Below, piece after piece: positions 41,809-45,965 of a DNA stretch of 64,000 bases. The notes under the pieces were generated by a model. It did no database searches and was not told the origin of the DNA. It saw nothing but the letters and a program-made list of their open reading frames with translations. Each line of letters opens with the position of its first letter. Position 1 is the first letter of the stretch. The position numbers and the translations under genes were made by a program. Source of the DNA: an uncultured Coriobacteriaceae bacterium (lineage in GTDB: Bacteria > Actinomycetota > Coriobacteriia > Coriobacteriales > Atopobiaceae); contig CACYTH010000002.1 in NCBI GenBank assembly GCA_902777325.1, forward strand, positions 75,831 to 139,830, given 5' to 3'.

Positions 41809-44091
41809 GTGAGCCTGTCAGATACCACAGCCAGACAGATGGCCCCAAGAGAGCCCTTCGACGCGTTTGGCATCCTCTATTACCCCGTTTTCTCGCATCG
41901 TACCGACCTTCCCACCACAGTTGATGACATCGACATGGCATGGGCCGTCACTGCGGACGCGAACCTCGTGGGAACGGGCTTTACGCTCTCGCAGCTATCA
42001 ATCCTCACGTTGGCCCGCTGCCATCACGCACGACCCCAAAACGCACTCGGCATCAACCCACTTGACGATCTCAAGCAATTCATCAGTCATATCGACACGA
42101 CGCCTAGGTACCCTGGCTTCCCCAGCCAGTTCATGCAGACTGTGGAGGCAAAGCTTCACCTGACCCAACAGCATCACGATCGTCTTGCCCATGGCGAGAA
42201 GCTGCTTGCCAGACTTGGTGAGCCCACGCTGGCCGGAGGCAATGGCTGGTTCCCCGAGGTTGACACCACCCCCGAGCGCGGTCGCAGCGCGGCGTTCGTC
42301 GAGCCGAAGACGCTACAGGTCATCGTAACCTCCGAGGACCTGCGAGCCATCGTTGCAGCCCGTCTCGCGCGTGCGACTCGCATGAGCGAGGCCGAGCTTG
42401 CCACAGCCATGCTGGTATTCGACGACGACATCGACACCTGCCTGACGGCCTTCCCCAAAGTCGCCTTCCACGAGAACATGATGAGTCTCATCTACATGGC
42501 TTCCAAGCAAGACTCAAACACGCTGGAGCGTGTGGCTGCAAGCCTCGCACAGCACCCCGGCGACCTTCTCAAGGCGATCCGAGACGTTAGCGGTAGCCAC
42601 CTTACGACCCGTCAGAAGAAGGGCTTCTGCCGCGCTTTCGAGCATTTTGAATCACGGGAAATCGCCCAGAACATCGTAGATGCCAGTCGTCGGAACCGAA
42701 TAGCCCCCAATCTCCTCTCAGTGGCACGCTTTGGCGGCCCACATCTGCGCGAGGCCATCGAGTTGGTGGAGACGGGCGCGGTACGCTCGTGGGCAAGTAC
42801 GCTCGAGCAGCTCTGGAGCAAGGTCTATCGCCTCGCTCCGGTCGACCGCGAGCAGGTGTGGCGCAAGCTCTTTGCCAGCCGTAATCAACACAGCGACCCT
42901 TCGCGCCGCAAACAGTTCGACGAGATGTATGACCGTCTTTACCTGCGGGAGAATCCTGAACTGACGAAGCTGTGGGAGGAGTTGCTCACGCACTACGGAA
43001 AGCGTCCGGGCATGCTGCTGCGCTCGCTCCGTCGTCTGCTTAAGGCGGGCTGTCCCGTGGAGCTGCTCGAGCCCGAGGTCCAAGCTCACACCTCCGAGTA
43101 TTCCCTCCGCACTCTCGCAGGTATACTCACCAGTTTAGCTGCAAGCAACCTCGTTAAGATGGATACCAATCCATGGTGGGATGGCTACCGCGAACCTCTC
43201 AACCTGCGTCTCGAGATGGAGGATGAGGACGCCGTCAAGCTTCGATCACAGCTCTGCAAAGTGCTCTGCAGCGCCATGGTTCCCCACATGCGCAACCTCA
43301 AAACCCCGCTCAAGGGCAAACGCGTCCATCTCGACACCTCTGGTGTCTCGCTCGTCGGATCGATGCTCATTCCCAACAAGGTTGACCCCTCCAACAATGT
43401 CTGGCCACCAGTAGGCATCGCGTTCGACCTGCCTCGGGACAAGACAATTCGATTCTTCATTTATCAAGACAATCGTGAAGAGAAGAATCCCCATACGTTC
43501 CTTAAATTAGCTGAGCTCACCACATCGGGACGGTGCCACATACTGGGGGGTAGCCATGAAAGCACAGCCACAAGGCACACCTTGGTGGAGTACGTGGACG
43601 TGCATGTGGATGACCTCCTCGAGGAAGGCGTAACGTTTGGAGTGGTAAGCCTAGACATCGATAGCATGTTCCATTATCGAGACATCGATGGCTGCTTCCA
43701 TTCTTGGGATGACCTCATTGCCTGCTTCTGTGGTGTGCTGGCGGTAGATGGTGAGGAGTGGAACGACGACCTCAATGACACCAGTCGATTGCTCTTCGGC
43801 CATGATTTCGGCCGCACTTACAATAAAAGAGAGTGCTATGCGCTCGTCAACCTTCCCGGTCACTATGCCCGCATCTTGCATGGGGCCCCGATTCCCTTGG
43901 GCAACACGAGTTTCTCGCTGGGTAGCTACCTCAAGATGCTGTTTGAGGCTCAAGAGGTCACGCTGGTTGACACCCCAGACAAGGCAGATGTGCGCGTTTG
44001 CGTAGCCAGTAGCAATGACCCCGAAGTCATCAGCCTCTTTGACGAGGGCTTCTATCTCGGTTTGGAGAGGTCTCGAAATATCATCCAATAA
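41809..44091 (+). CDS. Large protein with TerD-like C-terminal domain
   Basis: 760 aa. The C-terminal 220 residues resemble a TerD/stress domain of the large MXAN_6230/SCO0854-type proteins: LPRDKTIRFFIYQDNRE (near residue 540), HILGGSHESTATRHTLVEYVDVHVDDLLEEGVTFG, then an aspartate-rich strand and YLKMLFEAQ. No RING finger is present, unlike some relatives. The N-terminal 530 residues are helical repeats (AFEHFESREIAQNIVDASRRNRIAPNLLSVARFGG) of unknown fold. TerD proteins bind calcium and act in tellurite/phage/stress responses. GTG start has AAGGGAAGG. Codon use and GC look different from the neighbours, suggesting transfer. Confidence 0.6.
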   Translation: MSLSDTTARQMAPREPFDAFGILYYPVFSHRTDLPTTVDDIDMAWAVTADANLVGTGFTLSQLSILTLARCHHARPQNALGINPLDDLKQFISHIDTTPRYPGFPSQFMQTVEAKLHLTQQHHDRLAHGEKLLARLGEPTLAGGNGWFPEVDTTPERGRSAAFVEPKTLQVIVTSEDLRAIVAARLARATRMSEAELATAMLVFDDDIDTCLTAFPKVAFHENMMSLIYMASKQDSNTLERVAASLAQHPGDLLKAIRDVSGSHLTTRQKKGFCRAFEHFESREIAQNIVDASRRNRIAPNLLSVARFGGPHLREAIELVETGAVRSWASTLEQLWSKVYRLAPVDREQVWRKLFASRNQHSDPSRRKQFDEMYDRLYLRENPELTKLWEELLTHYGKRPGMLLRSLRRLLKAGCPVELLEPEVQAHTSEYSLRTLAGILTSLAASNLVKMDTNPWWDGYREPLNLRLEMEDEDAVKLRSQLCKVLCSAMVPHMRNLKTPLKGKRVHLDTSGVSLVGSMLIPNKVDPSNNVWPPVGIAFDLPRDKTIRFFIYQDNREEKNPHTFLKLAELTTSGRCHILGGSHESTATRHTLVEYVDVHVDDLLEEGVTFGVVSLDIDSMFHYRDIDGCFHSWDDLIACFCGVLAVDGEEWNDDLNDTSRLLFGHDFGRTYNKRECYALVNLPGHYARILHGAPIPLGNTSFSLGSYLKMLFEAQEVTLVDTPDKADVRVCVASSNDPEVISLFDEGFYLGLERSRNIIQ

Positions 44092-44474: not shown

Positions 44475-44514
44475 AGAGATGGCCTGCAGGCAGAGCGGAT
44501 GAGGAGGACTGCCC

Positions 44515-44823
44515 ATGAAGAAGACCTTGGTCTTTGGTGCCGCCACGGCAGCAGTCGCCCTCTCCCTGGGCAGCTGCGTGATGGTCAGCTGCGCGCCGCA
44601 GCCCGTACCTTCGCTCTATGGCCCTCCGCCCATGCAGGAGGATGATGACCCCATCGAGGACGTCTATGGGTCCCCAGTCGACTTCGACGAAGAAACGGAC
44701 AGCAACGACACAGATGACCTCGATGACGGCACGGACATCGATGACGCTGAGCCAGCTGAGCCCGAGGACGATGAGGGCATGATGATTACGCTCTACGGTC
44801 CGCCACCAACAGACATGGATTGA
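44515..44823 (+). CDS. Acidic lipoprotein with YGPPP motifs, candidate radical-SAM substrate
   Basis: 102 aa. A lipoprotein signal (MKKTLVFGAATAAVALSLGSC) places the lipid Cys at 21. The mature chain has LYGPPP at residue 34, VYGSP at 50 and TLYGPPP at 92, separated by a very acidic, Asp/Glu-rich middle with no fold visible. AGGAGG lies 8 bp upstream of the ATG. The radical SAM/SPASM gene starts 44 bp after its stop. Small lipoproteins with Y-G-x-P motifs next to an rSAM/SPASM enzyme resemble the TIGR04134 ('lipoprotein with rSAM') substrates described from Bacteroidetes. That it is modified is inference. Confidence 0.72.
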   Translation: MKKTLVFGAATAAVALSLGSCVMVSCAPQPVPSLYGPPPMQEDDDPIEDVYGSPVDFDEETDSNDTDDLDDGTDIDDAEPAEPEDDEGMMITLYGPPPTDMD

Positions 44824-44867
44824 CGCACAAGCCTCCTATCCCCATCCGTCCGCCGCAAAGGACGCCC

Positions 44868-45965
44868 ATGCAACAGACCAACGCCCTCAAACGCTCGGGA
44901 CTCGAGCGCCAGCGCGGCCGCTTTGAGCGCAACCGCATCTCCCCCACCCTCCAGCAGCTCTTCTTGGAGGTCACACCGCGCTGCAACCTCTCGTGCGTCC
45001 ACTGCGGCAGCCGCTGTGACGAGCACAGCCTGACGCAGGAACTCTCCCTCGACGAGTATCGCAGCGTGCTCTCGCGCGTGCGCGACGCGTTTGGCACGCG
45101 CGTGTTTGTGGTGCTCACCGGCGGCGAGCCCCTGCTCTATAGCGACATCTACCGCCTGGGATCTCTCATAGCAGACATGGGCTTCCCCTGGGGGATGACC
45201 ACCAACGGGACGCTCATCACACGCGAGGTGGCAAACCGGCTCGTGGATTGTGGCATGCGCACCGTCTCCATCAGCGTCGACGGGACGCGCAAGACCCACG
45301 ATGCCGTGCGCCGCCACCCCGGCGCCTACGACGCGGCGCTCGCCGGCGTGCAAAACCTTGCCGACAATGGAGACCTCAAGGCCCTGCAGGTGACCTCCGT
45401 CGTCAACCACCAGACCATCGACGAGATAGACCGGCTCTTCGACCTCATGGTGAGTCTTCCCATCGACAGCTGGCGCCTTGCCAACGTGGAGCCCATCGGC
45501 AGCGCGCTGCTCCACCCCGACATCCTCTTTACGCCCGAGGACTATGCGCGCTTGTTTGCCTTCATCCGCGAGAAGCGCGAGCAAGAGTGGCCCGTGGAGT
45601 ACGGCTGCTGCCACTACCTGGGTCTCGGCTACGAGGGAGAGCTTCGTAACTGGTTCTGGCTCTGCAGCGCGGGCATCCACGTGATGTCCGTCACGCACAC
45701 CGGTGACATCGCCAGCTGCCTCGATATTGAGCGCTCGCCGAAGACCGTCTTTGGCAACATCCGCACCGACGACATCGCCCAGGTGTGGCACGACGGCTTT
45801 GGCATCTACCGGCAGCGCGATGGGCTGGCAGAGCGCAACGCGCGTTGCGTCGCCTGCTCCCAGAAGCGCTGGTGTCGGGGCGACTCCGCACACAGCTGGG
45901 ACTTCACCCGCGACGAACCACGCGTGTGCATGGCCCGCGACCTGCCGGGCTTCATCCCACTGTAG
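44868..45965 (+). CDS. Radical SAM/SPASM protein, TIGR04133-like
   Basis: 365 aa. The radical SAM motif CNLSCVHC supplies C39, C43 and C46; GGEPLL and SVDG follow in the SAM barrel. C-terminal SPASM cysteines are present (LCSAG, SCLDIE, CVACSQKRWC, VCMARD), together with GDSAHSWDF. This layout fits peptide/protein-modifying rSAM enzymes, notably the TIGR04133 type paired with lipoproteins. ATG 44868 has AAAGGA upstream; a TTG at 44820 would overlap the lipoprotein stop. It ends at a shared terminator with the flotillin gene. Confidence 0.82.
   Translation: MQQTNALKRSGLERQRGRFERNRISPTLQQLFLEVTPRCNLSCVHCGSRCDEHSLTQELSLDEYRSVLSRVRDAFGTRVFVVLTGGEPLLYSDIYRLGSLIADMGFPWGMTTNGTLITREVANRLVDCGMRTVSISVDGTRKTHDAVRRHPGAYDAALAGVQNLADNGDLKALQVTSVVNHQTIDEIDRLFDLMVSLPIDSWRLANVEPIGSALLHPDILFTPEDYARLFAFIREKREQEWPVEYGCCHYLGLGYEGELRNWFWLCSAGIHVMSVTHTGDIASCLDIERSPKTVFGNIRTDDIAQVWHDGFGIYRQRDGLAERNARCVACSQKRWCRGDSAHSWDFTRDEPRVCMARDLPGFIPL

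Follow-up and report, generated by a model that had tools for sequence, protein, structure and literature searches.

Among the described systems closest to the gene pair reported here, two kinds stand out. The first are the TIGR04133 (rSAM_w_lipo) and TIGR04134 (lipo_with_rSAM) pairs of Bacteroidota and Treponema, in which a radical SAM enzyme is encoded adjacent to a lipoprotein bearing a YGxP motif close to its lipobox. The chemistry of TIGR04133 is, to our knowledge, undescribed, and a literature search returned no paper on TIGR04133 and no functional paper on TIGR04133/TIGR04134 pairs.

The second are the spliceases (PlpXY; TIGR04103, nif11-class maturase 3; TIGR03913, GDL-motif maturase), where we take PlpX, a proven splicease, to belong to TIGR04103. 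PlpX, whose family is given as IPR026482, is partnered by the RRE protein PlpY (PMC11002830), and PlpXY excises tyramine at XYG (PMC10533398, PMC11002830). It works on short tags without a leader, a tag of ten residues being enough (PMC10533398), and protease inhibition is described for spliceotide products (PMC11117315).

The lipoprotein gene and the radical SAM/SPASM gene

The window, a stretch of 64,000 nucleotides from an uncultured Coriobacteriaceae bacterium of the rumen, encodes an acidic lipoprotein of 102 aa that carries three YGxP motifs, followed after 44 nt by a radical SAM/SPASM gene on the same strand. This arrangement, described in the earlier note, is confirmed from the sequence, and its features are as follows.

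44502 to 44507, + strand: AGGAGG, Shine-Dalgarno-like, of the lipoprotein gene (direct sequence reading)
44515 to 44823, + strand: YGPP-repeat lipoprotein, 102 aa, ATG start, proposed substrate (ORF reading; orthologues at the equivalent position in related loci)
44515 to 44592, + strand: lipoprotein signal peptide and lipobox region with candidate cysteines C21 and C26 (sequence)
44617 to 44631, + strand: motif 1, L-YGPPP, residues 35-39 (sequence; family logo)
44665 to 44676, + strand: motif 2, V-YGSP, residues 51-54, YGAP in the nearest relative (sequence; comparison)
44794 to 44808, + strand: motif 3, L-YGPPP, residues 94-98 (sequence)
44868 to 45965, + strand: radical SAM/SPASM enzyme, 365 aa, TIGR04133 sister and proposed YGPP modifier (profiles, alignment, tree)
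44982 to 45005, + strand: CX3CX2C (C39, C43, C46), motif of the SAM-binding [4Fe-4S] cluster (unchanged across sets of 13 and of 71 homologues)
45663 to 45929, + strand: SPASM domain, C266-X12-G-X4-C284 ... C327-X2-C330-X5-C336 ... C354 (profile and alignment)

The signal of the lipoprotein is an ordinary Sec-type signal, and its lipobox cysteine is either C21 (LGSC) or C26 (VSC), with C26 being the column aligned as invariant. The 82 residues from C21 onward include 27 Asp or Glu and no Lys or Arg, and all three tyrosines in this region sit inside the YGxP motifs at residues 35 (LYGPPP), 51 (VYGSPV), and 94 (LYGPPP), resembling an acidic, disordered-looking repeat tether. The window protein and its nearest relative differ by a 12-residue linker block, yet both have the first and third YGPPP; the second motif reads YGSP in the window and YGAP in the relative. 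No NCBIfam or Pfam family matched the window lipoprotein, and five related lipoproteins gave no meaningful match in NCBIfam. A 760-aa protein encoded just upstream (41809 to 44091, + strand) also has no NCBIfam or Pfam match, and its pairing with the locus is not conserved across 80 related loci.

The best start of the enzyme gene is the ATG at 44868. A longer ORF from a TTG at 44820 is possible, but the alignment with three near relatives (L010, L011, and L012) begins at the ATG and favors it; the intergenic gap is therefore exactly 44 nt. A simple scan of the + strand found no terminator-like site between the two genes, and a stable hairpin lies downstream of the enzyme gene; the two genes are likely cotranscribed.

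The enzyme belongs to the radical SAM/SPASM superfamily, having the CX3CX2C motif and matching both PF04055 (84 bits, cut-off 29.5) and the SPASM domain PF13186 (28 bits, cut-off 21.5) above the cut-offs. The canonical seven-cysteine SPASM pattern is incomplete, with the fourth cysteine of CX2CX5CX3C gone and C-x-G-x3-H in its place, so that the CX3C position has no cysteine while H342 is invariant. The same loss, with a histidine two residues further on, is found in 71 of 71 YGPP enzymes and in each of the three TIGR04133 enzymes compared. The spliceases, AhbD, and MftC in this comparison retain a cysteine at or beside this position. The auxiliary cluster, and hence the reaction, may therefore differ from that of the spliceases.

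Modeled with AlphaFold (mean pLDDT 90.8), the enzyme shows an ordinary SPASM maturase fold, matching SuiB, ChlB, anSME, SkfB, CteB, and PqqE with Z scores of 23 to 27. The model has no fused RRE domain, only a single helix ahead of the core. The fold and the cluster-binding architecture are thus common to SuiB, ChlB, SkfB, CteB, and PqqE, but these proteins, like MftC, are only about 20% identical to the enzyme and have other substrates and motifs.

Conservation of the pair and of its motif

At least 561 relatives of the enzyme turned up when GTDB genomes were scanned, and the neighborhoods of the best 80 were studied. These best 80 of at least 561 belong to Coriobacteriia, Lachnospiraceae, Oscillospiraceae/Ruminococcaceae, Erysipelotrichaceae, and Saccharofermentans, and they stem mostly from rumen and gut metagenome-assembled genomes, with Bacillota predominating. 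The occurrence of the pair in an actinobacterium, to which the earlier note had drawn attention, is thus real but not peculiar to that group.

Among these relatives, 77 loci from Coriobacteriia and Clostridia/Erysipelotrichia had enough upstream DNA, and in 70 of them a YG.P lipoprotein is encoded just ahead of the enzyme gene in the same orientation, in most cases less than 100 nt away. ORF clustering around the 80 enzymes identifies this lipoprotein as the sole widely conserved neighbor, the next cluster being present at 14 of the 80 loci at a median of about 2.6 kb downstream. No conserved third gene, including a PlpY-type RRE partner, was found within about 5 kb across the 80 loci; the statement in the earlier note that no exporter or protease lies beside the pair extends to the whole set, where none is conserved.

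An adjacent lipoprotein is lacking at eight loci (L082, L085, L096, L105, L117, L122, L126, and L128). A clear YGPP lipoprotein is encoded elsewhere in the genome for seven of them, sometimes about 6 kb off, and the eighth (L105, genome G103) has a weak lipoprotein match that is cut by a contig end.

The scan for co-occurrence with conserved YGPP, proposed earlier as the test of the pairing, was borne out at the level of genomes as well as at the 70 of 77 loci. A strong enzyme match is present in 18 of 100 sampled Coriobacteriia genomes, and a lipoprotein match (<1e-10) is found in 17 of these 18 and in none of the 82 enzyme-free genomes (Fisher p 3e-18, with relatedness ignored). The lone exception, genome G011, has its enzyme cut at a contig start. 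In a sample of 76 Lachnospirales genomes, the enzyme is present in four, each with an adjacent YGPP lipoprotein, two of which were detected by profile and two, having a single motif, by reading the DNA beside the enzyme gene.

Two further observations concern the outer range of the family. A more distant Coriobacteriia locus (L027, genome G093) has a TIGR04133-like enzyme (193 bits) at a contig end, and a YG.P lipoprotein was not seen beside it. A viral contig collection contains one close homologue of the enzyme (L157, 47%) and six weak ones, and phage records contain distant radical SAM proteins only; the L157 contig may be host flank, and the match gives no evidence for a phage system.

The repeat unit of the lipoproteins is N-x4-[VL]-Y-G-P-P-[EP]-x-F, present in one to seven copies per protein. 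Across 219 copies from 70 lipoproteins, Y, G, P, and P are conserved at 99 to 100%, where the search pattern YG.P presets Y, G, and the second P, and the freely varying P right after YG is found in 99%. The residue before Y is V in 87% and L in 11% (together 98%), N stands six residues before Y in 76%, position +4 is E or P, and F occupies position +6 in 33%. Twin-arginine-like signals (MKKLTRRxFTAAG) are found in a second Coriobacteriia clade, and the pattern RRx[FLI] occurs somewhere in 11 of the 70 lipoproteins.

The Lachnospiraceae genome G105 encodes five YGPP lipoproteins. Three of them (L189, L190, and L191) are unlinked to the enzyme and have, close to the lipobox, one YGPP or YGAP ahead of a longer domain, a layout like that of TIGR04134 proteins, which argues that the enzyme reads the motif and not the whole lipoprotein. 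The genome of the window itself encodes a second YGPP lipoprotein (L075, 1396 to 2556, + strand, 386 aa) in which one DYGPP directly follows the lipobox. It was considered as a substrate in trans and set aside because D, not V or L, precedes Y and because its sole relative among 40 genomes, in G002, is without the motif.

Relation to TIGR04133/TIGR04134 and to the spliceases

The resemblance to the TIGR04133/TIGR04134 pairs that had been suggested for this locus holds for the enzyme in part. TIGR04133 is the best NCBIfam family for it, with 265 bits (264.6) and the next family at 152 bits, but the score stays below the family cut-off of 425 bits, as do those of two Clostridia relatives and one further Coriobacteriia relative (254 to 270 bits). 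The annotated members from Parabacteroides and Treponema reach 608 and 451 bits. Judged from these profiles, the tree, and the alignment, the enzyme is a probable sister of TIGR04133 and not a member, sharing with it the loss of the fourth SPASM cysteine and the C-x-G-x3-H motif.

For the lipoprotein, membership in TIGR04134 was not supported. Neither the window protein nor the five related lipoproteins match the TIGR04134 HMM (cut-off 39.8 bits), to which a Parabacteroides control scores 207 bits. A search for TIGR04134 in the window's own genome gave no match, and it was a weak search, since control genomes were also without a match. In the annotated TIGR04134 protein, the lipobox is followed by one YGxP and then by an Ig/carboxypeptidase-regulatory-like domain, unlike the tandem YGPP motifs in an acidic, disordered-looking tether described here. 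Three TIGR04133-linked lipoproteins carry CEYGSP, CEYGTP, and SCYGMP. In an unannotated Phocaeicola massiliensis record (L164, 3914 to 5493), a YGTP lipoprotein is encoded downstream, not upstream, of a TIGR04133 enzyme.

We placed the enzymes in a tree of 39 proteins with the outgroups AhbC/AhbD/TIGR04053, MftC, and PqqE on long branches. The YGPP enzymes form one group (98/95) that joins TIGR04133 (100/97), and both then join TIGR04103, TIGR03913, and an Agathobacter enzyme (98/98), apart from AhbC/AhbD/TIGR04053 and from the separate branches of PqqE and MftC. Topologies uniting either the spliceases or the YGPP/TIGR04133 enzymes with the heme-biosynthesis enzymes to the exclusion of the other were rejected (p-AU 0.009 and 0.008), while these groupings are indistinguishable in the tree without the outgroup rows. 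Given the long outgroup branches, we take the placement beside the spliceases as good, not final.

The enzyme is not a TIGR04103 protein, scoring 116 bits against a cut-off of 725, where a Nostoc enzyme scores 853 bits. What it has in common with the spliceases is the wider clade and an X-Tyr-Gly in the proposed substrate. The Nif11 precursor beside the Nostoc enzyme ends in ALYGLPPELF, and its core LYGLPPELF is close to VYGPPExF. DUF1843 peptides beside splicease-clade enzymes of Azospirillum and Aureibacter carry RPYGPAM and QPYGAGI, although one of two paralogues in Azospirillum and two of three in Aureibacter have no X-Tyr-Gly at that place. RPYGPAM is the only one of these splicease-clade examples with Pro directly after YG. 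The differences are a lipoprotein substrate, no Nif11 or DUF1843 leader, the altered SPASM motif, and no PlpY or other RRE protein found nearby.

Two of these comparison loci merit a description of their own. The Nostoc plasmid locus (L168, 3615 to 5436) encodes the Nif11 precursor, the TIGR04103 enzyme, and a 71-aa ORF where PlpY would be expected. In Agathobacter rectalis (L167), an unannotated 35-aa ORF with VMYGTG, from about 3784 on the + strand, directly precedes a TIGR04103-like radical SAM gene (235 bits), and it is a candidate precursor for a splicease of this commensal of the human gut.

Proposed modification and alternative explanations

We are highly confident that the lipoprotein and the radical SAM enzyme form a substrate-enzyme pair with the YGPP sites as the target. 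For the chemistry, the placement in the tree beside spliceases with X-Tyr-Gly substrates leads us to propose splicease-like backbone editing at V/L-Y-G, and we give tyramine excision at the YGPP sites a little short of an even chance.

In this proposal, the cytoplasmic, iron-sulfur-dependent enzyme would read the N-x4-[V/L]-Y-G-P-P-[E/P] motifs and modify each Tyr-Gly site, and because of its location and its cofactors, it would have to act before export. A tyramine unit (C8H9NO, about 135.07 Da) would be removed at X-Tyr-Gly, leaving an alpha-keto-beta-amino (ketoamide) residue in place of the Val or Leu that precedes Tyr. The modified lipoprotein would then be exported by the general lipoprotein route, which would be Sec here and twin-arginine-like in the second Coriobacteriia clade, where such signals would suit modification before transport. 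The result would be a lipid-anchored tether, acidic and flexible, presenting between one and seven modified sites. Its role at the surface could, speculatively, be protease-trapping or otherwise nucleophile-reactive, and protease inhibition, as described for spliceotides, would be compatible with a tethered P1-like Val/Leu ketoamide.

The lack of a conserved PlpY-like gene nearby, the TIGR04103 score, the replaced SPASM cysteine, and the rarity of Pro directly after YG among the splicease-clade examples considered here speak against chemistry identical to that of the spliceases, so the chemistry could differ within the clade. The fuller picture of a lipid-anchored class in gut Bacillota and Coriobacteriia, in which an RRE-free splicease sister with an altered cluster edits tandem V/L-Y-G-P-P sites into surface ketoamide arrays, is put forward as a tentative model, somewhat more doubtful than the excision step itself.

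A rather unlikely alternative, which leaves the pair intact, is a cross-link at the motif from Tyr to a neighboring Val, Pro, or Glu carbon with the loss of 2 H per site, as made by SPASM enzymes that form cyclophanes and by PqqE, which links Glu to Tyr. The predicted fold agrees with this, since it matches the cross-linking maturases SuiB, SkfB, CteB, and PqqE, but anSME, MoaA, and viperin match it too, so the fold is no proof of function. A strained ring might be favored by the stiff Pro-Pro next to Tyr, although we know of no cyclophane in which Pro serves as the acceptor. The altered SPASM motif shared with TIGR04133 would also be compatible with a cross-link, while the tree places the enzyme with the spliceases and not with PqqE or MftC.

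Slightly less probable again is some other chemistry at Tyr, Gly, or Pro, possibly a new reaction, with epimerization, C-alpha or C-beta oxidation, beta-scission, and cofactor-like maturation as options. The CxGxxxH-type motif that replaces the SPASM cysteine throughout the YGPP enzymes suggests a changed auxiliary cluster and would leave room for such a reaction, but nothing speaks positively for any specific one.

That the enzyme has its target elsewhere and the lipoprotein is merely coregulated cargo is improbable. In its favor one can cite the solubility of the enzyme and the export of the lipoprotein; against it stand the near-perfect co-occurrence by gene and by genome, unlinked lipoproteins included, and a motif that is conserved while the linkers vary. 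Chance neighbors with a chance motif are refuted by the co-occurrence; in addition, none of 200,000 shuffles of the same composition contained three YG.P (47 contained two) and the pair is conserved in two phyla.

We found no family model for the lipoprotein or for the pair, and a literature search, whose scope lay outside the splicease survey (Scott and others, Chem 2022), gave no paper on a radical SAM enzyme with a YGPP lipoprotein. Taken together, the results point to a sister family of TIGR04133 near the spliceases, with an unmodeled repeat lipoprotein that would be a widespread modified surface protein.

Most of what is known of peptide chemistry by radical SAM enzymes concerns natural products that are secreted, while the apparent product here is a resident surface lipoprotein with tandem sites, found across rumen and gut bacteria. 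The make-up is that of two genes, substrate and enzyme, with no leader and with an RRE partner not found nearby. If tyramine excision is true, the compact motif and the leaderless enzyme would make a handy protein-labeling tool. Through the Tyr-Gly motif and the common branch, the pair links TIGR04133/TIGR04134 of Bacteroidota and Treponema to the spliceases, and the chemistry of all these systems can therefore be tested together.
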